DNA from: Clostridia bacterium
GTDB lineage: Bacteria; Bacillota; Clostridia; Oscillospirales; CAG-272
DNA length: 64,000 nt
Direction of reading: 5' to 3'
Assembly (NCBI GenBank): GCA_017411745.1
Contig: JAFQPM010000015.1
Location: 1-64,000 of the forward strand
The position numbers were made by a program, and so were the translations under genes. The notes beneath the pieces are model-generated. The model saw nothing but the letters and a program-made list of their open reading frames with translations. It searched no databases and was not told the origin of the DNA. Positions 1 through 12,680 of the stretch are shown piece by piece (positions within the stretch are counted from its first letter, which is position 1; every line of letters starts with the position of its first letter).

Positions 1-546
1 AAGGTCGGTTCTTTCCTTCCACATAGGCTGTACGGGTATGACAGTTGACGAATTATCTATAAACGAGCCAAAAGCATACGCAAGTGAGGTCTTTCCCGTT
101 CCCGACATACCCTGAAGTATCAAAATATGCGACACGGACATGCCCGCGATAAATCTTCTGATATCTTCGATATCGTAATACAATCCGTGATTGCTTGCCG
201 CGTAATTTCTGAAATTATCACACAGCTCCTTAAGCGTTATTCCCTTGTCGTAGCTCGTTCTCATATAGCTCTTTTCGTTGCTGTCGATCGTGCTCAGCAT
301 ATAAAAGCGCTCTCCCGTCTCCTCTGCCTCTTCCTTCTCCTCTTGCGCTGCGGGGGCATTGTCGTAGGATATCTTATACTCTACAGCATTCGATTGACCT
401 CTTTCCTTCACTATAACGGTGATAACTATGACCGCTATTGCCGCCAAGACTACGAAAAGATAAATAATTATCGCTATCGGAGAAGAAATGAGCTCGGGCA
501 GCGACATCAGTGCCGCCAAAGCGTTGGACATTATAAAGTTTAACAT
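1..546 (-). CDS. membrane-anchored AAA ATPase, McrB/MoxR-like (3' end cut by window edge)
   Basis: Reads leftward from an ATG at 546 and is open to base 1 (182 codons visible), so the C-terminus lies outside the window. A hydrophobic segment at about residues 22-48 anchors it, followed by an acidic linker (residues 65-80). A canonical Walker A motif, GMSGTGKTSL, sits near residues 146-155, and a V-x-x-x-W motif follows (VQPMW), which resembles the McrB-like AAA+ clade. The Shine-Dalgarno AAGGAGAT overlaps the stop of the upstream gene, so translation is probably coupled. The region around the P-loop aligns by eye with the C-terminal domain of the neighbouring 557-4039 protein, which lacks the P-loop. 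Walker B, sensor and partner domains cannot be seen. Role unknown; an ATP-driven membrane remodelling or gating factor is inference. Confidence 0.8.
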   Translation of the reverse strand, partial: MLNFIMSNALAALMSLPELISSPIAIIIYLFVVLAAIAVIVITVIVKERGQSNAVEYKISYDNAPAAQEEKEEAEETGERFYMLSTIDSNEKSYMRTSYDKGITLKELCDNFRNYAASNHGLYYDIEDIRRFIAGMSVSHILILQGMSGTGKTSLAYAFGSFIDNSSTVIPVQPMWKERTDL

Positions 547-556
547 TTATATCTCC

Positions 557-3500
557 TTAATCCTGACCTTCGTTTGAGTTAGAGCTATCACTCGAAGGCT
601 CGTCATTTTCGGGTGTTGCAGTCTCAACAACACTAAGATTGTCCTTTTTGTAGGTCTCGGCATTTTTCAGCACCTCTGCACACTTGACCATATCGTCATC
701 GCCGAATACGGAATCAAATATCTCTGTAAGCGAATCGCCGTTCTCGGTCTTCTTACCGCTTGCCGCAAGTATTGCCGCAGGCATAAGCTTTATCGCCATA
801 GCGATATCAACGCTTTGCTTGAGATCGATTTCCGTAGCCATAAGCGCAGCCGCGCACTTTTCAAACGCCAGACACATTTTATTATTTATGGCGAACGTAG
901 GCTCGAGACTCTTTACACGCTTTTCAAAAGAATCGATCTTTTTCCAGAGATCCTCGGCTATAACGAACTTATTAACAGCGCGCTCACTGATATAGCCCAT
1001 CTGATAATAGAAGAAATCACCATAATTTGAGTGCTTATTCGAAGGAGTCGTCTTTGCCACAGAAATGCGATTTACGGTCGCGATCTCGGGGATAAGCTCG
1101 GGGATCATATCATAGCATTCTCCGATAGCAAGGTTGACGGCAAACCACATATTTTGATGAATGTAGTATGTCATTTCCTTGTTTCGCTCGTTATGCGCGA
1201 TCACCGAAGTAAATCCAAGCGGATTTTTCGCATGCTTGATGTAAGGGGTGAAATATTTCATCATATCTTTGCTTCTGACACCGTCAAGAGCAGCAATATG
1301 TAATCTTTCCTTGGTTTTAACTGCGCTTTCGATAGCATATGTCAGGTTTCTCTTAACACGGTGTCCCTCTTCATCGAGAGCAAAGAGTGCGCTTTCCTCG
1401 TTAACGTATGAGGCATCGACCTTATCGACGTAGGTCTTTGTTCCAAAATAATCCGAAAGCACGGAGATAAGGCTCTTGAAATCCTCAGAGCTCATATCCT
1501 TAAATACCAACAGTCTGGAAGATGATACAGCCGCGAAAATGCTCTTCACCACGTCCTCGTCAAGCATAAGCCCGCGCTCAAGCGCAAACTCCTTGAATTC
1601 CTTTGTTGCACGGGTAAAATCAAGTGTTTTATCAACGTATTTAAGCGACTCGTCGTATCCCTTGCGCTCCTTTACCGCCACATTGCGAGCGTCGTTTTGA
1701 TGTTCGGGCTCTGTATCAAATTCGGTTCTGAACATGGTTGCAGCAGAAAACTCGGGAAGCTTCTCCGCATCCTCAAAGTGCTGCTGATTTTCCATTGCTA
1801 TCATTTCGCGCTCTTTTGCGTAAGCCTTATTCTTCTCGACTGCGTCGATAATAAAGAAGACTATGCCTGTCACTGCCAATATGGCGGTGATCACTCCCAA
1901 AAAGAAAGAAGACGCTGTCAGAGCATTATATACGCCGAGAGCTATCGCCAAAACACCCGCGCCTACTCCACAAATTATATTTTTTTTGGATTTTTTCATA
2001 AGATCGTAACCTGCCTCTAAAGTATATTTGTCACCAATAATGTTTGATTCGGACTGAAGATATTTATACAGCTTGTCTTCTGACTCAACGCTGATACTCT
2101 CGCTTCCGCCATGAATATTCGTAACGAGCCTGATATCGGTCGCGGAAGATCCGACATATACGGTATACATTCCCTTTTCGACGACCATTTTTCCACTCTG
2201 CTCGTCAAAGACCATGGGGAGCTCGATATCCACGCTGACGCGCTTGCTTTCCCTGACCTTAAGGTCTATAATGGCATAGCCGCACAGCTCGCGAGTGGGT
2301 CTTATCAGATTTGAATCCAATGCACTCACGTACACTTGGGCAATTTCTCTGCCTTCGCGCTTACCTGTATTCGTAACCGTAAAGGTCACGGTATTGCCAC
2401 TCACTTTAGGCTTTGAATAGGTAAATTTGGTATAAGAAAGTCCGTGTCCAAACGGATATTGCTCATGAATACCTGCCGTGGTGTAATATCTATACCCCAC
2501 AAAGCGACCTGATTTAACTCCGTATTTATTGCGATACAGCGCATATTTTTCAGAATATCCGTCGATATCAGAATAAAGTGTATACGGCAAGCGTCCCAGC
2601 GGATCAGATTTGCCGAGAATAACGTCAACTATCGATGCCGCATCGTCTTTTACTTCGAAAGGTGCCAGCATGACCGTCGGGAACGAATCGGTAAATCCTA
2701 CGTCCACACCAAAGCCCGTTTCCAAGATAACGACGATCTTTTGAGCATACGACTTTAATTTATCAACTAATTCTAGCTGATTTGCCGGCAGAGATACCTT
2801 GCGCGACACGGGAATTTCTTTTCCTCTCTCCTCGCCGTGTCCCAAGAACAAGAACGCCACGTCGCAGCCCTTAACTGCCGCAAGTGCTTTCAGATAATCA
2901 ACTTCCCCCTGCTCTATGTCCCTGTGGATGTCATATCCCTTTTCTTTCTCGACTCTACTTACGCCGTTAGCCATAAGCAAGGCTTCACACCTATCGAGAA
3001 GGGTGTCTCCTTCCTCTCCGTCAGCGGCTATGCCTCCTATCAACGCGACCGATGATCCGACCTTCGTGTTTAGGGGAAGCATCGATCTCTCGTTTTTCAA
3101 AAGAACAGTTGCTCCTTTGGCTGCTCTGGACGCAAGTCGATCCTTCTCATCAGGGAGTAGCTTTTTGCCCTTTTCTTTATTATTTGACTCGAGCAAAAAA
3201 GTGAATAATCTTTCAAGAGCCTTGTCAACAAGCTCGGGAGATATTGCTCTGCCCGCCTTTATCTCAACATCGATCTCGCCCTCGGTCATCTCTCCCGCTT
3301 CTTGACGTTTACGCAACTTATAATACAAATTTAGTGCGTTTTCAAGCGCCAACGAGGATCCCTTGAGGCATATTCCTCCGTTTATCAGGAAAGGTACCGT
3401 ATCCTCTGCCGAAGCTCGCTTTACAACTACGCAGGTTTCGCCGGCTACATTTCCCTTTTCGACATCGGATAAATATGAATTTTCATGCGAATATTCATTT

Positions 3501-4039
3501 GCGAGTATCCTTCTGTCCGTGATCACCGCGGATGCGTGACTATCGCTTACCGTGCGCTTGAACGGCTCTACCAAAAACTCGTGCAGAACCGCCCTCGACG
3601 GAGAAACGTCCATTCGATCGACGTCGGCATCAGTCAGGTAATATCCCGATATTGCCGCCGACGCACCCGCATAGTTAACTCCACGAGCAAACTCGGTTGC
3701 AAGTGACCGAGTAAGATAGATATCCTCGGACATTTCGTTTCTGTATGGGGACAGCTTTACCTTCGCTCCCGGTGTCGCTATAACGTTGGACGCAGGACTA
3801 TTTAAAGAAAGCGCGACTTCACCCGACAACTCGTATATAAGGTCATTGTCCCACGAATGTGCAAGTGCCGCGGGAGAGGGATATTTGCCCTCCTTTAGCA
3901 TCCGATGCATATTCCAAAAGGCAAACCCCGGGATGCCCAGGCTCGCCCTCTCACCGTCCGATAAGGACATAACGTCGGTGAGTATCCTCACTTTGTCATC
4001 GTCCCTGAGACTTGAGATGATATTACTGTATTTAAGCAT
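557..4039 (-). CDS. catalytically degenerate GH3-like protein fused to a membrane hairpin and a P-loop-less AAA-like domain
   Basis: About 1160 residues. The ATG at 4039 follows GGAGAG, so it is preferred over the in-frame TTG at 4051. Order: GH3 N-terminal-like barrel (about 1-300), GH3 C-terminal domain (about 310-545, with the FGHGLSYT.F signature), fibronectin-III-like domain (about 555-640), two adjacent membrane segments (about 690-735), and a cytoplasmic domain (about 815-1130). There is no signal peptide, so both ends are predicted cytoplasmic, unusual for GH3. The GH3 catalytic positions are lost: the nucleophile motif SDW(G) reads VVKRAS, the K-H-F motif is replaced by SGYYL, and the D-G-P substrate loop is absent. 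The C-terminal domain aligns with the neighbouring AAA protein, but GMSGTGKTSL there is DMSSEDFKSL here. I infer a pseudo-enzyme or scaffold acting with the intact ATPase. Automatic annotation would call it beta-glucosidase, which is doubtful. Confidence 0.85.
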   Translation of the reverse strand: MLKYSNIISSLRDDDKVRILTDVMSLSDGERASLGIPGFAFWNMHRMLKEGKYPSPAALAHSWDNDLIYELSGEVALSLNSPASNVIATPGAKVKLSPYRNEMSEDIYLTRSLATEFARGVNYAGASAAISGYYLTDADVDRMDVSPSRAVLHEFLVEPFKRTVSDSHASAVITDRRILANEYSHENSYLSDVEKGNVAGETCVVVKRASAEDTVPFLINGGICLKGSSLALENALNLYYKLRKRQEAGEMTEGEIDVEIKAGRAISPELVDKALERLFTFLLESNNKEKGKKLLPDEKDRLASRAAKGATVLLKNERSMLPLNTKVGSSVALIGGIAADGEEGDTLLDRCEALLMANGVSRVEKEKGYDIHRDIEQGEVDYLKALAAVKGCDVAFLFLGHGEERGKEIPVSRKVSLPANQLELVDKLKSYAQKIVVILETGFGVDVGFTDSFPTVMLAPFEVKDDAASIVDVILGKSDPLGRLPYTLYSDIDGYSEKYALYRNKYGVKSGRFVGYRYYTTAGIHEQYPFGHGLSYTKFTYSKPKVSGNTVTFTVTNTGKREGREIAQVYVSALDSNLIRPTRELCGYAIIDLKVRESKRVSVDIELPMVFDEQSGKMVVEKGMYTVYVGSSATDIRLVTNIHGGSESISVESEDKLYKYLQSESNIIGDKYTLEAGYDLMKKSKKNIICGVGAGVLAIALGVYNALTASSFFLGVITAILAVTGIVFFIIDAVEKNKAYAKEREMIAMENQQHFEDAEKLPEFSAATMFRTEFDTEPEHQNDARNVAVKERKGYDESLKYVDKTLDFTRATKEFKEFALERGLMLDEDVVKSIFAAVSSSRLLVFKDMSSEDFKSLISVLSDYFGTKTYVDKVDASYVNEESALFALDEEGHRVKRNLTYAIESAVKTKERLHIAALDGVRSKDMMKYFTPYIKHAKNPLGFTSVIAHNERNKEMTYYIHQNMWFAVNLAIGECYDMIPELIPEIATVNRISVAKTTPSNKHSNYGDFFYYQMGYISERAVNKFVIAEDLWKKIDSFEKRVKSLEPTFAINNKMCLAFEKCAAALMATEIDLKQSVDIAMAIKLMPAAILAASGKKTENGDSLTEIFDSVFGDDDMVKCAEVLKNAETYKKDNLSVVETATPENDEPSSDSSNSNEGQD

Positions 4040-4098
4040 TTTTCTCTCCAAAGTAAAAAGTTAAAAAAGGATCGATTTACGCACTGATAATTCTCTGC

Positions 4099-4629
4099 TC
4101 ATCGAAGAAACTGTATAATGATCAGTGCTGTTACGCAAAGCAAAACAGCCGCCGCCATAAGACCTGCTATCGTCTCAAATTGCGATAGCTTAAATGAGCT
4201 CGCAGAAAAATCAACACCAAACATACTCTCCTTGCGAGGCTCCTTTTGAGGAGCATAATACACATAGGCCTTCTTTCCCGTGACCTTGTACGTATGCTTA
4301 TCCGAAATTGCTCTGACAAAGCTTATTTTAAAATCAACACATTCTTCTGACAGGGGGATTCCCTGTGGTGATGCAAACGTCTCGCCTGCTTCAACATTGA
4401 TATCCTTATAGGAAAGATGACGAACGTTCAATATCTCGCCGTCGCGGTTAAACTCGGTAAGCACAAAACGCACCGATCTCAATACAGTTTCGGTATCGTT
4501 CGAGCATCGCAGAAGCAGATGCTTGACACCGTCTCTGTATACAAACATAAATTGTTTGACACTTACGAATCCTTCAATTTGCGGATGCTTGTAAATGCCC
4601 TTTATCGTTATCTTGTCCACACTACTCAT
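4099..4629 (-). CDS. tail-anchored membrane protein of the GH3-like/AAA cluster
   Basis: 176 residues: a beta-rich soluble domain (about 10-130) and one C-terminal membrane segment (about 152-175), so probably tail-anchored with its domain in the cytoplasm. The start ATG overlaps the stop of the upstream 4626-5330 gene (ATGA), so the two are translationally coupled. Its soluble domain shares a pattern with the middle of that neighbour: a Y/V-D-G-V-K opening, a phrase on successive strands, and a repeated R-I/L-I..V-R motif. This suggests the two are diverged paralogs that may form a heteromer. I do not recognise a family. Confidence 0.75.
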   Translation of the reverse strand: MSSVDKITIKGIYKHPQIEGFVSVKQFMFVYRDGVKHLLLRCSNDTETVLRSVRFVLTEFNRDGEILNVRHLSYKDINVEAGETFASPQGIPLSEECVDFKISFVRAISDKHTYKVTGKKAYVYYAPQKEPRKESMFGVDFSASSFKLSQFETIAGLMAAAVLLCVTALIIIQFLR

Positions 4630-5330
4630 CTTATCTTCAGACCGCCCTTTCTCTTTTTAAGGAACATAGCCCATAGACCTAAGGCGCTTATAGCTATCGC
4701 TGCTATCAATACTATCGGCATGCTTATGAGCAACGTCGGAAATCCCGGAATAAATACTCGTAAAACCTCAACCAATCCGAGCACAGTCGCTCGAAGAAGA
4801 AATGCCTCCGCTACAGTCACCACAGTCACTGTACAAGCAAAAATGATCCCTCTCACCTTGTTGAGCGTCAAGGTTGCACCAACAGAGAGCTTTTGTTCAT
4901 TGACCGTGTCAAGCAGGAGCGTTACGTACGAGGTCTCCATCGGCAACGCCACGCGTTTTGTACATCCTGCAGGACCTATTGCATCAGTCACCCGAACCAC
5001 GTCTATTATTCTGTTGCGTCTGTCAAACACCACCGCCGAATATCCTATACATTCGACACTATCTGTGACTTTACATCTTATGTACTTTACACCGTCGTCA
5101 ACGAAAAGAATATACGAGCTTACGTACTGTCTCAACGCAGGATGAGGCTCATAAAGTATTCCCCTTCCATTCGGGTACGTATATTTTTTCAATCCTCTGT
5201 CCGTCACGGGACAATCAAAGCGCAGCAACAGTGACGGCAACGCTGAGCCCACTAAAAAAGTGTATATACCTATGCTGATAAGGCACAGTATGATCTCAAG
5301 TACGATCTTGAATATGGTATCAATAATCAT
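4626..5330 (-). CDS. multi-pass membrane protein with paralogous beta-domain
   Basis: 234 residues. An N-terminal membrane segment (about 5-35), a soluble stretch (about 40-155) resembling the domain of the 4099-4629 protein, then two or three membrane segments (about 160-225) and a basic tail. Start ATG at 5330 lies 5 bases after a GGAGAT. It is the second gene of a CvpA-like, this gene, tail-anchored, GH3-like, AAA order with almost no gaps. No recognisable enzyme motif; function unknown. Confidence 0.75.
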   Translation of the reverse strand: MIIDTIFKIVLEIILCLISIGIYTFLVGSALPSLLLRFDCPVTDRGLKKYTYPNGRGILYEPHPALRQYVSSYILFVDDGVKYIRCKVTDSVECIGYSAVVFDRRNRIIDVVRVTDAIGPAGCTKRVALPMETSYVTLLLDTVNEQKLSVGATLTLNKVRGIIFACTVTVVTVAEAFLLRATVLGLVEVLRVFIPGFPTLLISMPIVLIAAIAISALGLWAMFLKKRKGGLKIR

Positions 5331-5363
5331 GAGATATCTCCAAAATAGATGATTTTAACGGGA

Positions 5364-6920
5364 TCAATTTCCCTGGTAGTATTGTTCAAAAAATTCCTGC
5401 ATTTGCTCGGTTGTTATGTATCCGTCGGAATTCGGTATATTCGTTATCATGGCATCCGCTATTACCTTCGCCACATCAGCGGGAACGTCAACTCCGTAAT
5501 CCTGCAGATATTCGACGGTATAGTTAGCAAGCGTTTCAACCTTTTTGTCATGAGGCTGACCACTCATTCGGTTGAACTGCTCTGTTATATCCTCCATCAA
5601 GCCGTTATACTCATCTATGTCGTATCCTTCAAACTTGATGGTGCTCATCAAGGAGTTCATCGCGAAAAGATGCAGACTGTCTATCAAGGGCTCTGTTCTC
5701 GGATTCTTTTCCAGCTCGCTGATAAGCTCATTCAAAAAGTCGCTATTTTCCAAAATTTCCATGATCGCATCGTAATCGCCGTCGGTCTTAAGGATTCCCG
5801 AATCCATAATTATACCGCAGACTCGGATGATCGTGGAAAGGTCATCTCCCACCGTGTCGGGCGTCGTAGTTGCCAATACAGAGAAAATGCTATCTGTAAA
5901 GGCGGATATCGAATAGTTGAAATCCGGGCGAGAGAATCCGATAAATTCATCACCTCTGGACCAACTGCTTGAAGCCGAGGATACAATGGAAGACGTCACC
6001 AAACTCAAAAAGTAAGAATCGTCTACCGTTTCACATATATCCCCAAGCTTTTCTACGTGATCGGAGTTAAAGCCATTGAGATTTACGATTGAGGGAACGA
6101 CCTCGAAAAGCTCTTGTGCAATAGACGAAATAGACTCGATCTCTTGGCTGAGCACCACGGTATGTCCGTCGATCTCTGCTACCGCGTTCATATCGTAGAT
6201 CGCCTTGCCTCCGCAATAATACATTACGGTTCCCGCAAAGTCGTTTGCATAATCGGATATGACGTCTAGCACACCTCCGGACTCGCTGTTGTCTTCATTT
6301 TCGTTTACGTCCTCATCTGCACTTGCTTGATCAGCAGATATTTGCTGCTCCGAGGTGTTGTCGTTGTTTCCGGTTATCATACTCGCAACAGCATCCACGC
6401 TCTTAAGAGTGCCTATGACCGGAGAAAACAGTATCAGCACGGTGAGAAATCCTGTAATACCGCCGACTAGAGCTCCTATCTGTTTATCGTTGCGCTTATA
6501 CCAAGTATCATTTTCTCCAGCACTGCCCTCCTCCTTCTTGCCGTTTTTCTCAAGTGCTTTCTTATAGACGATCGACATGATCACATGACATATTGATCGC
6601 AAAACAAAGAACACGAGCACAAAGATTATCGAGGACAATACCATAGATATCACCGCGGCAACTATTACGTAGAGACGGTTAATATCTTCGAACAGAAAAG
6701 CAAATAACTCGGTTTGATAGAGAGCAGACGTTATCAAACTGCTCAGCAAAGGTGCAATAACACGTGAGGAAAGGATACTACCTAACACAAGCGAAATTAT
6801 AACAGACAAAAATGCTATTATAGTTTTTGTGCTTCCTGTGCGATATCCGTCGTAGGCGCCCTTACTCACGTTTAATGCGACTGCAAGTATTAAAACCAGT
6901 GAAAAAATTGTAAACGTCAT
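5364..6920 (-). CDS. long CvpA-like membrane protein
   Basis: 518 residues. The first 130 residues carry four closely spaced hydrophobic segments typical of the CvpA/colicin V production family; another segment lies at about 150-170. The rest (about 200-518) is a large extracytoplasmic or cytoplasmic domain beginning with an Asp/Glu/Asn-rich linker. CvpA proteins are usually 160-180 residues, so the long C-terminal extension is unusual. Start ATG at 6920 follows GGAGACAAA. It heads the five-gene cluster read toward base 1. Family-level identification is moderate; the function of the extension is unknown. Confidence 0.75.
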   Translation of the reverse strand: MTFTIFSLVLILAVALNVSKGAYDGYRTGSTKTIIAFLSVIISLVLGSILSSRVIAPLLSSLITSALYQTELFAFLFEDINRLYVIVAAVISMVLSSIIFVLVFFVLRSICHVIMSIVYKKALEKNGKKEEGSAGENDTWYKRNDKQIGALVGGITGFLTVLILFSPVIGTLKSVDAVASMITGNNDNTSEQQISADQASADEDVNENEDNSESGGVLDVISDYANDFAGTVMYYCGGKAIYDMNAVAEIDGHTVVLSQEIESISSIAQELFEVVPSIVNLNGFNSDHVEKLGDICETVDDSYFLSLVTSSIVSSASSSWSRGDEFIGFSRPDFNYSISAFTDSIFSVLATTTPDTVGDDLSTIIRVCGIIMDSGILKTDGDYDAIMEILENSDFLNELISELEKNPRTEPLIDSLHLFAMNSLMSTIKFEGYDIDEYNGLMEDITEQFNRMSGQPHDKKVETLANYTVEYLQDYGVDVPADVAKVIADAMITNIPNSDGYITTEQMQEFFEQYYQGN

Positions 6921-7112
6921 TTTGTCTCCATTCTATTACAGGGTCGAAATTCTCTGTTCAAGATATTCGGCCGAATTATTTCCCACGTTTTGAAGCAAAT
7001 CAAAACATTTTTTAACATAGATATTTAATTATAACTCTTAAAGAAGGATTTGTCAACCGCAAATTACCCTTTTTGTGCCATTTGTATGTTTTGTGCACAC
7101 AAACAAGCCGCT

Positions 7113-7167: not shown

Positions 7168-9000
7168 TTACATCCACAATGCCGCGGCACCCATGATACC
7201 TGCGTCGTTTTCAAGCATTGCCGTGACTACCTTGACCTGCGGTCCTTTAGTTCCCGCATAAATGTCGCGGTCAAGCACTGCCCCAAGGGGCTTGATCAAA
7301 GCGTCTCCCTGCTTGCAAACTCCTCCGCCGAGGATCACTGCCTCGGGTCTGAACATATTGGCAATATTGGTAATACCCGCCCCGAGCATCTCGATATAGT
7401 TATCAACGACCTCTCTTGCGCTCTCGTCGACGTCGTAATAGTCAAAAGGTGTCTTACCGTTGACCTTCTCTATATCGCCGATCTCCCACATTTTGCTATC
7501 CTTATTGGCAAGCATCGCGCGCTTGGTGTCACGGATCAGCGCAGTTGCAGAAGCGTACGTCTCAAGGCATCCGCGACGGCCGCAGGTACACTGCTCACCG
7601 CCCGCAACGATGACCGCGTGACCAAGCTCTGCGCCTGCCGAACGGTTGCCCTCAAAGAGCTTTCCGTTTATGATTATTCCACCACCGACACCCGTGCCGA
7701 GCGTGAGCATAACGGTATTGTTATATTCTTTGCCGCAACCGAACTTGGTCTCTCCAAGCGCGGCAACGTTAGCGTCGTTTGCTATCTTCACGGGAAGTCC
7801 TGTGAGCTGCTCGAGCTCCTTCGAGATAGAGAAATCCTCCCAGCCGAGATTGTTGGAGTAGATGACCTCTCCTCGCTCACTGTCGATCATTCCCGGCACA
7901 CCCATGCCGATACCCTCGACGTCGCTTGCGGTCATATTTGCCTTTTTGAGCAAGGACTTGCAGAGGCTTGCGATATTATTCAATACCGTTGCAGAGCCGC
8001 CCTCACTTTCCGTGGGCACTTTGTCGTTGACGATTATTTTGCCCTCGTCGTCGATGATTCCACCCTTGATAAACGTACCTCCGAGGTCGATTCCGATGTA
8101 ATACTTGCGAACTTCTGTCATAATTATCTCCATTTCTCCCTTAAGGGTATATTGTCCGTAATTTGCGGGGATAAAATAGCTGTCTCCGACGGATATTTTC
8201 TGCCCGTCGATCTCGCCCTCTCCTTTTACGCAACAGATGCAGGCGAAGGTCTTTTCATTGGTCGAAAAGGTCTCGTTCTTAACCGAGATCTTTCTTACGT
8301 TGAAGTATTTGCTGACTCCGAGCAGGTCGCCGCCAAGCGCTGTATTCTCAAATTTTTCGAGATTTGTAACGCGAAGCGCCTTTTCGACGTGCAGCTCTCT
8401 TTCGTTGCCGTTTGCGTCCCTTCTGCCGTAGTCGTAGACGCGGTAGGTAAGATTACTGTTCTGCTGGATCTCGCATATCAAGCATCCCTTACCGATGGCG
8501 TGGATCGTTCCCGAGGGAATGAAATAGCATTCACCCGCCTTGACCTCGTAGAAGTTGAGCAGATCGGTCAATCTCTTTTCAGCAATAGCTTTTTCGTATT
8601 CCTCTTTGGTTACGCTCTCGCGAAATCCGAGATAGATTCCCGCGCCCTGCTCCGCCTCGACGATATACCACATTTCTGTTTTGCCGAAGGAATTTTCGTT
8701 CTTCAGCGCATATTCGTCGGAGGGGTGCACCTGCACCGAAAGATCCTGCTTGGCGTCGATGAATTTTATGAGCACGGGAAAGAAGGAAAAGTCCTTTATA
8801 TGCTCGCCGAGGTCGGCTTCCGTTGCGGTTTCTGCAAGCGTTTTGCCGTCTGACAGCTTTGTCATACCGTCCTTATGGAAGGAAAGCTCCCAGCTTTCAG
8901 CACAAGGAGATTTTTCGGTCTCCTTGCCGTAGATTTCTTTGAGTTTGTTTCCGCCCCAGAGGTAGTCCTTACACTCGGGGTAAAGCTTTTGTATTTGCAT
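7168..9000 (-). CDS. manA: fusion of mannose-6-phosphate isomerase (class I) and ROK-family sugar kinase
   Basis: One uninterrupted frame of 610 residues from the ATG at 9000 (GGAGATCATT spacer), preferred over an upstream in-frame ATG lacking a ribosome site. Residues 1-293 are a ManA-type cupin isomerase interconverting mannose 6-phosphate and fructose 6-phosphate: zinc-site motifs QVHPSDEYA, EMWYIVE and PSGTIHAIG. Residues 294-610 are a full-length ROK kinase (probably glucokinase): phosphate loop IGIDLGGT, GMGVPG, LGTGVGGG and the zinc motif CTCGRRGCLE. Cytoplasmic; both halves feed hexose into glycolysis. An internal ATG at 8121 has its own GGAGATAATT, so the kinase may also be made alone. 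The isomerase is near the length of short Bacillus-type ManA proteins. Confidence 0.92.
   Translation of the reverse strand: MQIQKLYPECKDYLWGGNKLKEIYGKETEKSPCAESWELSFHKDGMTKLSDGKTLAETATEADLGEHIKDFSFFPVLIKFIDAKQDLSVQVHPSDEYALKNENSFGKTEMWYIVEAEQGAGIYLGFRESVTKEEYEKAIAEKRLTDLLNFYEVKAGECYFIPSGTIHAIGKGCLICEIQQNSNLTYRVYDYGRRDANGNERELHVEKALRVTNLEKFENTALGGDLLGVSKYFNVRKISVKNETFSTNEKTFACICCVKGEGEIDGQKISVGDSYFIPANYGQYTLKGEMEIIMTEVRKYYIGIDLGGTFIKGGIIDDEGKIIVNDKVPTESEGGSATVLNNIASLCKSLLKKANMTASDVEGIGMGVPGMIDSERGEVIYSNNLGWEDFSISKELEQLTGLPVKIANDANVAALGETKFGCGKEYNNTVMLTLGTGVGGGIIINGKLFEGNRSAGAELGHAVIVAGGEQCTCGRRGCLETYASATALIRDTKRAMLANKDSKMWEIGDIEKVNGKTPFDYYDVDESAREVVDNYIEMLGAGITNIANMFRPEAVILGGGVCKQGDALIKPLGAVLDRDIYAGTKGPQVKVVTAMLENDAGIMGAAALWM
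8119..8131 (-). promoter_or_regulatory. internal ribosome binding site and start for the ROK kinase half
   Basis: On the minus strand GGAGATAATT precedes the ATG at 8121, matching almost exactly the GGAGATCATT before the manA start at 9000. No stop codon separates the two halves, so both a fusion and a free 317-residue kinase could be produced. Confidence 0.55.
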
Positions 9001-9108
9001 AATGATCTCCGTTTCAATTGAGGTACAGATACATTGTATCATAAATCTTTCTCTATTTCAAGGATTTCGCCAAAAATTCCGCACTTTAATTTTCGGCAGA
9101 GCTTTTAC

Positions 9109-11267: not shown

Positions 11268-11930
11268 TCAGCCGAGTTTTTCCTCCGAATTATCTTTTTT
11301 TAACGTGGTCAGAAAAATGCAAAAAGCGAAAGCATATATGCCGATCCCCGACGATATTTTAAGCATCAGATAAAGTGCCATAGTCCAGATAGCAAAAAGT
11401 GAGATCGCGGTGGTGACCGACAAAACCCTTTCTGCAAAACGCTCGTTTGAAATTGCGGCAACTGCACAATACAGCACTCTGCCGCCATCAAGTTTTTCAA
11501 TCGGTACAAGGTTTGTGACCGCATGGATCAACGACGACACCGCGAAAAAACCGAGATAGCCCCACGCGTCGCTCTGTCCCGATTCCAACAGCTCCGATGC
11601 TTTTTCAAAAAGCTCGACCGCCGAGACCTCGCTTGCCCTCGAAACAGCAAAAATTATCGCGGCGGCGACAAGATTTGCCAGCGGTCCTGCCAACGCGAGA
11701 AAAAACTCGCTTTTATACGAGATCAGGCGCTCGTCGGTCTCTATTTTTGCGCCGAATATGCCGAATTTTATCTCTTTTAACTTTATCTTTTGCGTTTTTG
11801 CCGCCAAAATATGCCCTGCCTCGTGCAAAAGCGCCGCCAAAGCGTATATGAAAAAGGGTTTTACTCCGTTACATATCATTACTGCCAAAAACAGCAGAAT
11901 TCCTCCAAGCCCATATCTTATCTTTCTCAA
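11268..11930 (-). CDS. M50 site-2 protease, SpoIVFB-like
   Basis: 220 residues. TTG start at 11930, supported by GGAGAGCTGAA. Six or so membrane segments. Zinc motif HEAGH (about 36-40) and the second zinc-ligand motif NLVPIEKLDGGR (about 140-150) identify an intramembrane metalloprotease of the S2P family, close to SpoIVFB, which cleaves pro-sigma-K during sporulation. Whether it does so here cannot be told; no SpoIVFA neighbour is present. It ends 6 bases before the upper Zur box, so the box lies between this gene and zur. Confidence 0.87.
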   Translation of the reverse strand: MRKIRYGLGGILLFLAVMICNGVKPFFIYALAALLHEAGHILAAKTQKIKLKEIKFGIFGAKIETDERLISYKSEFFLALAGPLANLVAAAIIFAVSRASEVSAVELFEKASELLESGQSDAWGYLGFFAVSSLIHAVTNLVPIEKLDGGRVLYCAVAAISNERFAERVLSVTTAISLFAIWTMALYLMLKISSGIGIYAFAFCIFLTTLKKDNSEEKLG

Positions 11931-12005
11931 TTCAGCTCTCCGATCACGTTTTTTATAAATTTATGTCGGCACATAAAAGAATATTTATATTTTTTGTGAA
12001 ATTAC

Positions 12006-12034
12006 TTGACAATCGCGCGACCGTATGATATGAT
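12006..12034 (+). promoter_or_regulatory. sigma-A promoter of the DUF1836-IreB-ribF operon
   Basis: TTGACA (12006-12011), 17-base spacer, TATGAT (12029-12034). The spacer carries GCGCGACCGTAT, also seen at the rsmE promoter and, in near-identical form, in the nfeD promoter. Confidence 0.8.
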
Positions 12035-12089
12035 ATTAAATGTTAAAATATATTAATAAAACTACAGTTTTTTGAAAGGATTTTGATTT

Positions 12090-12680
12090 ATGAATCTTCA
12101 GATCAAGGACGAGCTTATTCCCGGCACAAAACTTCTGCGCTCGGAAATGGGCGGTGTTACGGGACTTGAATTTCTCTCTAAAATCTTCTTTATCTCAAAT
12201 GGAGTCATGCTCACGCAGATACGCGAGATCTCGGGCATTGACGGTACTACCCTGCAGAACTGGACCAAGCGCGGCTGGGTAATGAATTCGAAGCTGAAAA
12301 AGTACAGCATCGATCAGGTCGCGCACATTCTTATCATCAATATGCTGCGATCCTGCATGCAGCTCGATAAGATCGCGTTTCTCATCGAGTACATTAACGG
12401 AAAGCTCGACGACACAAGCGACGACATCATTGAGGACTCCGTGCTCTACGATTACATATGCAGAGTTCTTGACAGACTTATGACTTACGAGGTCTGCTCT
12501 CTCGGCTCGGTCCGCGTTGCCATCGAGGAGGAAACTCAGGACTACCAAGAAAAGATGCCCGGTGCAAGAGAAAGACTCTCCCAGGCGCTTGAAATAATAG
12601 TTGTTGCATACTACGCCTCGCTCATCAAGAGACATTCAGACGCTATGCTTGCAGAGCTCTGCTACGGAAAGACGTTTTAA
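12090..12680 (+). CDS. DUF1836 protein with HTH-like N-terminus
   Basis: 196 residues. The segment around 40-75 (TQIREISGIDGTTLQNWTKRGWV) looks like a MerR-type helix-turn-helix, and the overall layout matches the DUF1836 family of Firmicutes. Start ATG preceded by GAAAGGATTTTGATTT. First gene of a run with a membrane protein, IreB and RibF. A DNA-binding regulator is inferred; targets unknown. Confidence 0.8.
   Translation: MNLQIKDELIPGTKLLRSEMGGVTGLEFLSKIFFISNGVMLTQIREISGIDGTTLQNWTKRGWVMNSKLKKYSIDQVAHILIINMLRSCMQLDKIAFLIEYINGKLDDTSDDIIEDSVLYDYICRVLDRLMTYEVCSLGSVRVAIEEETQDYQEKMPGARERLSQALEIIVVAYYASLIKRHSDAMLAELCYGKTF

Follow-up and report, generated by a model that had tools for sequence, protein, structure and literature searches.

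McrBC, the type IV restriction system of Escherichia coli, has relatives that have been investigated as systems restricting DNA or RNA. In a different arrangement, MoxR AAA/DUF58/transglutaminase operons encode an AAA_5-class ATPase together with a secreted transglutaminase. One class of McrBC relatives, CoCoPALM, has so far been given three sentences in print, which name the class and defer its description (Bell et al., eLife 2024, PMC11090510); they mention an FtsB-like transmembrane (TM) region/coiled coil on the nucleoside triphosphatase (NTPase), signal peptidases, and coiled coils on both proteins. Here we describe an operon at the beginning of a 64,000-nucleotide stretch of DNA (the window; positions 1 to 64,000 of contig JAFQPM010000015.1, assembly GCA_017411745.1, from a Clostridia bacterium), in which two McrB-like ATPases (AAA1 and AAA2) and a DUF2357 protein are encoded with a fusion of two degenerate enzyme domains and with secreted surface proteins. 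We tentatively favor, at slightly less than even confidence, the reading that the operon encodes a nuclease-free membrane machine derived from McrBC, related to CoCoPALM and devoted to cell-surface protein assembly; the anatomy is well supported, and the function is what we infer from it.

Gene content and order of the operon

Five genes on the minus strand fill positions 1 to 6920 of the window with overlaps, or gaps of no more than about 50 bases (Table 1), and the two genes for small membrane proteins overlap by 4 bases. An initial annotation of this region had recognized the five tightly packed genes correctly and had described them as a membrane cluster in which a dead GH3/dead AAA fusion stands beside an active AAA protein. 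Both the members and their packing hold, and the set is conserved, but the cluster is incomplete as a system, being only the 5′ half of an eight- or nine-gene operon seen in complete relatives. The window, which opens contig C11 of a 1.84-Mb genome (97% complete), begins at the contig end, inside the AAA1 gene, so that AAA1 stops after 182 residues. The operon order in complete relatives is CvpA-like protein, two small membrane proteins, the fusion of a GH3-like domain to a degenerate AAA domain (GH3x-AAAx), AAA1, a DUF2357/coiled-coil protein, AAA2, and secreted transglutaminase and YDG-repeat proteins. In a genome of the same genus (G004), for instance, the genes that follow AAA1 encode a DUF2357-like coiled-coil protein, another AAA, a repeat-containing transglutaminase, and a giant YDG-repeat protein.

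We pooled searches that used either the fusion or the AAA protein as query, removed known duplicates, and obtained 88 loci, for which all counts are low estimates, as the simple open reading frame picker sometimes took a long antisense frame. The genes do occur together in other genomes: AAAx lies directly before an AAA gene at 50 of the 88 loci, AAA-DUF2357-AAA is found at 44, and the four genes AAAx-AAA1-DUF2357-AAA2 stand in this order at 33, of which 20 are GH3 fused. A transglutaminase or YDG protein follows directly at 57 loci. The hosts are Clostridia known from animal-gut metagenome-assembled genomes, Lachnospiraceae, Anaeroplasmataceae/Acholeplasmatales, and the isolate Anaerocaecibacter muris CLA-AA-M11 (Pumilibacteraceae), a cultured organism that carries the full set except the CvpA-like gene and makes the ideas below testable.

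AAA proteins and the degenerate fusion

Comparison of the intact AAA family profile with PDB sequences gave McrB as the sole match at E ≤ 0.01 (E = 8e-5). The P-loop Gly, Lys, and Thr and the Walker B Asp-Glu are invariant in 119 aligned intact AAAs and also in a set of 17; those 17 share an invariant sensor motif, ANNDDS, in which NxD is followed by another Asp. NxD plus an acidic residue is the signature of the large McrB branch that contains the CoCoNuTs and CoCoPALMs (PMC11090510), and by these motifs the intact AAAs are McrB-like proteins of the NxD branch. The neighbor of the fusion had been called intact; the window copy does show the P-loop, but its Walker B motif falls past the contig end and the remainder of the protein is known from relatives. 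The predicted N-terminal anchor has one TM segment in AAA1 and two in AAA2.

The C-terminal half of the fusion had been proposed to be a dead AAA-like domain, and profile comparison agrees. Eight fusion C termini matched 17 intact AAAs in hhalign with a probability of 99.6% (E = 4.6e-25) over 321 columns, and the alignment set the intact P-loop GMSGTGKTSL against DMSSEDFKSL, exactly as first proposed, and the Walker B sequence VLDEMN against ALDGVR. We then aligned the 119 intact AAAs, chosen by loose Walker patterns, with 56 degenerate domains; the fusions L140, L145, and L169 were omitted because the loose P-loop pattern matches somewhere in their approximately 1,165 residues. Among the 56 pseudo-AAAs, the P-loop Lys is present in none, the Walker B Glu in 2, the sensor Asn in 1, and the Arg finger in none, while three lid residues are kept (Asn in 54, Gly in 49, and Asp in 46). 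Because the lid residues are kept while the catalytic residues are lost, the alignment indicates that the pseudo-AAA fold is under selection without catalysis. In the AlphaFold2 model of the window copy, predicted strands and helices alternate as in AAA+ proteins, with a strand hairpin preceding the strand of sensor 1, and the lid is entirely helical. An alignment accident is ruled out by the profile match and by the retention of the lid residues across the 56 copies. It is also very improbable that AAAx is a decaying duplicate of AAA1, retained by linkage, to which GH3 was fused by chance: such decay would fit the high divergence (AAAx and AAA are about 16% identical), but each of the 56 copies is a long open frame, most retain the same lid residues, in several families, and the window copy has a confidently predicted fold.

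The N-terminal half fared similarly. The fusion probably starts at the ATG at position 4039, because its relatives begin at that Met, and residues 5 to 650 are GH3 (Pfam Glyco_hydro_3_C, E = 5.5e-24; Fn3-like, E = 3e-14; N-domain, only E = 0.01), with the beta-glucosidase 7ms2 as the best PDB profile match (E = 3.8e-98). The fusion model has a mean predicted local distance difference test score (pLDDT) of 85.7, and a structure search with it matched the GH3 beta-glucosidase 9lql with a Z score of 36 and a root mean square deviation of 3.2 over 598 residues; the matches listed were to GH3 alone, so the search bears on the GH3 half only. The KH and [ST]D[WY] motifs are present in none of 35 fused GH3 domains and in all 12 ordinary GH3 proteins of related genomes, which all carry the acid Glu too. 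Of the 37 aligned rows, 2 have Glu at the acid/base position and 21 have a gap there, and the residues that replace KH and SDW are themselves not conserved. The absence of GH3 catalytic motifs that the initial annotation had noticed is thus a property of the whole family, and an active GH3 glycosidase is ruled out by the loss of KH and SDW in all 35 fusions. Since these motifs and the P-loop Lys are missing across the family, the loss of catalytic motifs in both halves is, on alignment evidence, old and conserved rather than decay, and a double pseudoenzyme conserved over so many species must act without catalysis. Among 398 genomes sampled across the phylum, ordinary GH3 proteins were present and no other full-length fusion was found.

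The fusion has no signal peptide, a TM hairpin links its two halves with positively charged flanks on both sides, and the A. muris fusion shows no such hairpin between its halves; for these reasons the GH3 half is most likely cytosolic. The earlier suggestion that it binds a peptidoglycan-related ligand is therefore doubtful, as the topology argues against any extracellular ligand. A sugar ligand in the cytosol is another matter: on binding of sugar by the dead GH3, the pseudo-AAA could signal to the active AAA and so adjust the synthesis of the envelope or of surface glycans. The GH3 half retains its whole fold and is nearest to sugar-binding beta-glucosidases, and in three species the operon adjoins a gene for a class I mannose-6-phosphate isomerase (ManA) fused to a ROK glucokinase. 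We nevertheless consider a carbohydrate sensor improbable, as the two catalytic motifs examined are gone, with no conserved replacement, and 18 of the 56 pseudo-AAA loci have no GH3, which argues that sugar binding is not the core function. In the surface-assembly machine that we favor, the dead GH3 half would be a platform for protein or ligand binding.

AAA1 and AAA2 share a near-identical DNA block of 1.08 to 1.2 kb in 20 of 43 pairs (98.5 to 100% identity in 19 and 93.9% in one). The block starts shortly after the anchor and extends to the stop codon, with identity ending no more than 8 bases from the stop in 17 of the 20, while the anchors stay position specific (29 versus 11 bits). Between species, the AAA proteins are typically 45 to 75% identical. 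An ATPase-domain tree joins the two copies from one genome as sisters in 22 of 41 pairs; in the remaining 19, AAA1 and AAA2 each lie closest to the copy at the corresponding position in a different genome, so that homogenized and diverged pairs both exist. The homogenized pairs are a clear natural example of concerted evolution confined to a single domain, for which recurrent gene conversion is the simplest account. That identical motors are carried on two different anchors suggests that they assemble together, and there may be selection for identical partners in one ring. A metagenome artifact is unlikely, given that the isolate A. muris has 98.5% identity over 1,097 bases. The near identity of the AAA1/AAA2 repeat would explain why contigs of five genomes (G000, G011, G152, G093, and G194) end in this AAA gene; with two of them (G011 and G194) ending some 120 to 130 bases inside the repeat, plain assembly noise was ruled out in favor of repeat collapse.

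The protein encoded between AAA1 and AAA2 was assigned through Pfam DUF2357, which was found in 6 of 10 operon proteins at E ≤ 0.01 (best E = 1.2e-6); the G004 copy, at 21.5 bits, lies slightly under the cutoff of 23.3, and a sister group matches at E = 1.6e-13 (51 bits). No nuclease family, PD-(D/E)xK included, was found in these 10 proteins. The DUF2357 protein has a long charged C terminus by sequence and, in its model, a long helix (residues 305 to 339). In its sequence the partner resembles an McrC N-domain without the nuclease, an assignment that is weak by structure.

Small membrane proteins and chromosomal surroundings

The first gene had been described as CvpA-like. Its window product matches weakly (Colicin_V, E = 0.052, below the cutoff), but at E ≤ 0.05 the family is matched by six of the eight members, the best with E = 9e-6. 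The domain said to be common to the two small membrane proteins has moderate support from hhalign with 23 and 26 sequences (probability, 68; E = 4.7e-5; 79 columns), but the probability was only 16 with six sequences each. In some species the domain of the 176-residue protein heads a protein of 1,573 to 2,032 residues, shown in A. muris to carry BspA-type leucine-rich repeats (LRR). At locus L035 (positions 2 to 5881, G001), the site directly upstream of the GH3x-AAAx fusion, which in the close relatives of the window is occupied by the small membrane proteins, holds a 1,959-residue frame of leucine-rich-like repeats.

Table 1. Features of the operon and its upstream region in the window
Feature	Position	Strand	Basis
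AAA1: N-terminal TM anchor and start of McrB-like AAA domain, intact P-loop GMSGTGKTSL, truncated by contig start	1..546	-	Complete relatives; best PDB match McrB
GH3-like/pseudo-AAA fusion, 1164 aa (1160 aa from probable true start, ATG 4039)	557..4051	-	Pfam, hhalign, AlphaFold2 model
GH3 pseudoenzyme domains and Fn3-like domain, residues 5-650; KH, SDW nucleophile, and acid/base Glu not conserved	2102..4039	-	Pfam, PDB profile match, alignment, structure match
TM hairpin of fusion, residues 690-740, both sides predicted cytosolic	1832..1984	-	Topology prediction; model helices 689-711, 716-760
Pseudo-AAA domain with helical lid, residues 805-1135	647..1639	-	hhalign, alignment, AlphaFold2 model
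Degenerate P-loop DMSSEDFKSL	1469..1498	-	Alignment with intact AAAs
176-aa protein: N-terminal soluble domain and one C-terminal TM	4099..4629	-	
234-aa membrane protein with soluble middle domain	4626..5330	-	Middle domain possibly related to domain of 176-aa protein
518-aa CvpA-like membrane protein, first gene	5364..6920	-	
Promoter-like TTGACA-17-TATAAT, 12/12 consensus, upstream of first gene	7028..7056	-	Sigma-70 scan

The promoter-like sequence was the sole 12/12 match of the sigma-70 scan, and scans of this kind also give chance matches. Farther upstream (positions 7168 to 9042, minus strand) lies the ManA-ROK fusion, a 624-residue frame that stands at the equivalent site in two related genomes (L032 and L033). 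The chromosomal neighbors of the operon, namely, this fusion and a metal ABC transporter, are alike in three species.

Proposed function and comparison with known systems

In the mechanism that we propose, AAA1 and AAA2 would be anchored in the membrane with their ATPase domains in the cytosol, and their rings would be stimulated by the DUF2357 coiled-coil protein, which is McrC N-domain-like. GH3x-AAAx would be a pseudo-subunit whose AAA-like half binds the active AAAs, perhaps in mixed AAA1/AAA2/AAAx complexes, and caps, scaffolds, or regulates the ring. Across the membrane, the cytosolic ring may be connected to the secreted transglutaminase and YDG-repeat proteins by the CvpA-like protein, the BspA-LRR fusions, and the small membrane proteins, and the motor would drive or control how these secreted proteins are assembled or anchored at the surface. 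More speculatively, and with roughly one chance in three by our estimate, this may be a new class of trans-envelope machine, in which giant repeat proteins at the surface of gut Clostridia are assembled or cross-linked by a nuclease-free membrane McrBC-type ring with two differently anchored, homogenized motors and a pseudo-AAA/pseudo-GH3 subunit. Recurrent gene conversion would then keep the AAA pair identical since both feed one mixed ring.

Several observations weigh against a surface-assembly machine. The model of the DUF2357 protein (pLDDT, 81) had no PDB fold match, and hhalign found no match between this protein and one classical DUF2357-nuclease protein. Five GH3-type loci (L034, L104, L105, L114, and L121) have a single AAA and no DUF2357, either because DUF2357 is dispensable and was deleted between the repeats or because assembly collapsed the repeat; at L104 the sequence may just stop too soon. 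The downstream half of the operon is absent from the assembly of the window's own genome. Finally, the distribution is patchy, with the AAA found at E ≤ 1e-15 in 50 of 196 genomes of the family.

Patchiness would also suit the strongest rival, in which an McrBC-derived membrane system senses infection via its NTPase ring and acts at the membrane as an anti-phage defense, the surface proteins being unrelated or accessory cargo. McrBC itself is a restriction system, and the AAA matches the PADLOC candidate defense model PDC-M26A (E = 4e-46). However, no nuclease or other recognizable effector was found in the operon, the linkage to transglutaminase, YDG-repeat, and LRR surface proteins is stable across Clostridia, Lachnospiraceae, and Anaeroplasmataceae, and the chromosomal neighbors are alike in three species; we regard defense as unlikely. 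If a nuclease-free membrane machine is the correct reading, it would place the McrBC motor in cell-surface biology, where an old defense-type motor seems to have been reused.

Among known systems, the GH3 beta-glucosidases (7ms2, 9lql, and 5wab) share domain order and fold with the fusion at 25 to 28% identity; unlike them, the fusion is probably cytosolic, is joined to a pseudo-AAA, and has lost KH and the SDW nucleophile in every example examined. The resemblance to MoxR/DUF58 operons is one of layout only, since here the AAA is of the McrB type with a DUF2357 partner and no DUF58 or VWA gene was seen. E. coli McrBC shares the McrB-like AAA with Walker A, Walker B, and N-x-D-type sensor and the DUF2357 partner next door, whereas the present operon is membrane anchored, has three McrB-type subunits, and shows no 5-methylcytosine-binding domain and no PD-(D/E)xK nuclease.

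The initial annotation knew of no described system with this composition. A related class, CoCoPALM, had in fact been named in print, without the extra subunits of this operon; apart from the CoCoNuT paper, the literature yielded nothing on the operon itself. No signal peptidase gene was found in the window, where the operon is cut at the contig start, or in the pseudo-AAA loci; such genes were found only at L083, L084, and L172 to L174, which combine an McrB-like AAA and DUF2357 with nearby SipW/archaeal-type signal peptidases and fit the CoCoPALM description. At L083, L084, and L174 the peptidases flank the AAA/DUF2357 pair, and the AAAs of L083 and L084 are 43 to 51% identical to that of the operon. 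Short proteins with TasA-like N termini (a likeness judged by eye) lie near all five, and L083 also holds an EAL-domain gene (cyclic di-GMP phosphodiesterase family; positions 11704 to 12507, minus strand). With CoCoPALM our operon shares an NxD-type McrB NTPase with a predicted N-terminal TM anchor, an McrC/DUF2357 homologue with a putative coiled coil, and a proposed link to surface or pilus assembly. It differs in its two AAA genes plus pseudo-AAA, its GH3 pseudoenzyme fusion, its transglutaminase/YDG/LRR partners, and its homogenized ATPase pairs. Because of these extra subunits and the absence of a signal peptidase, we file the operon as a relative of CoCoPALM rather than as a member.

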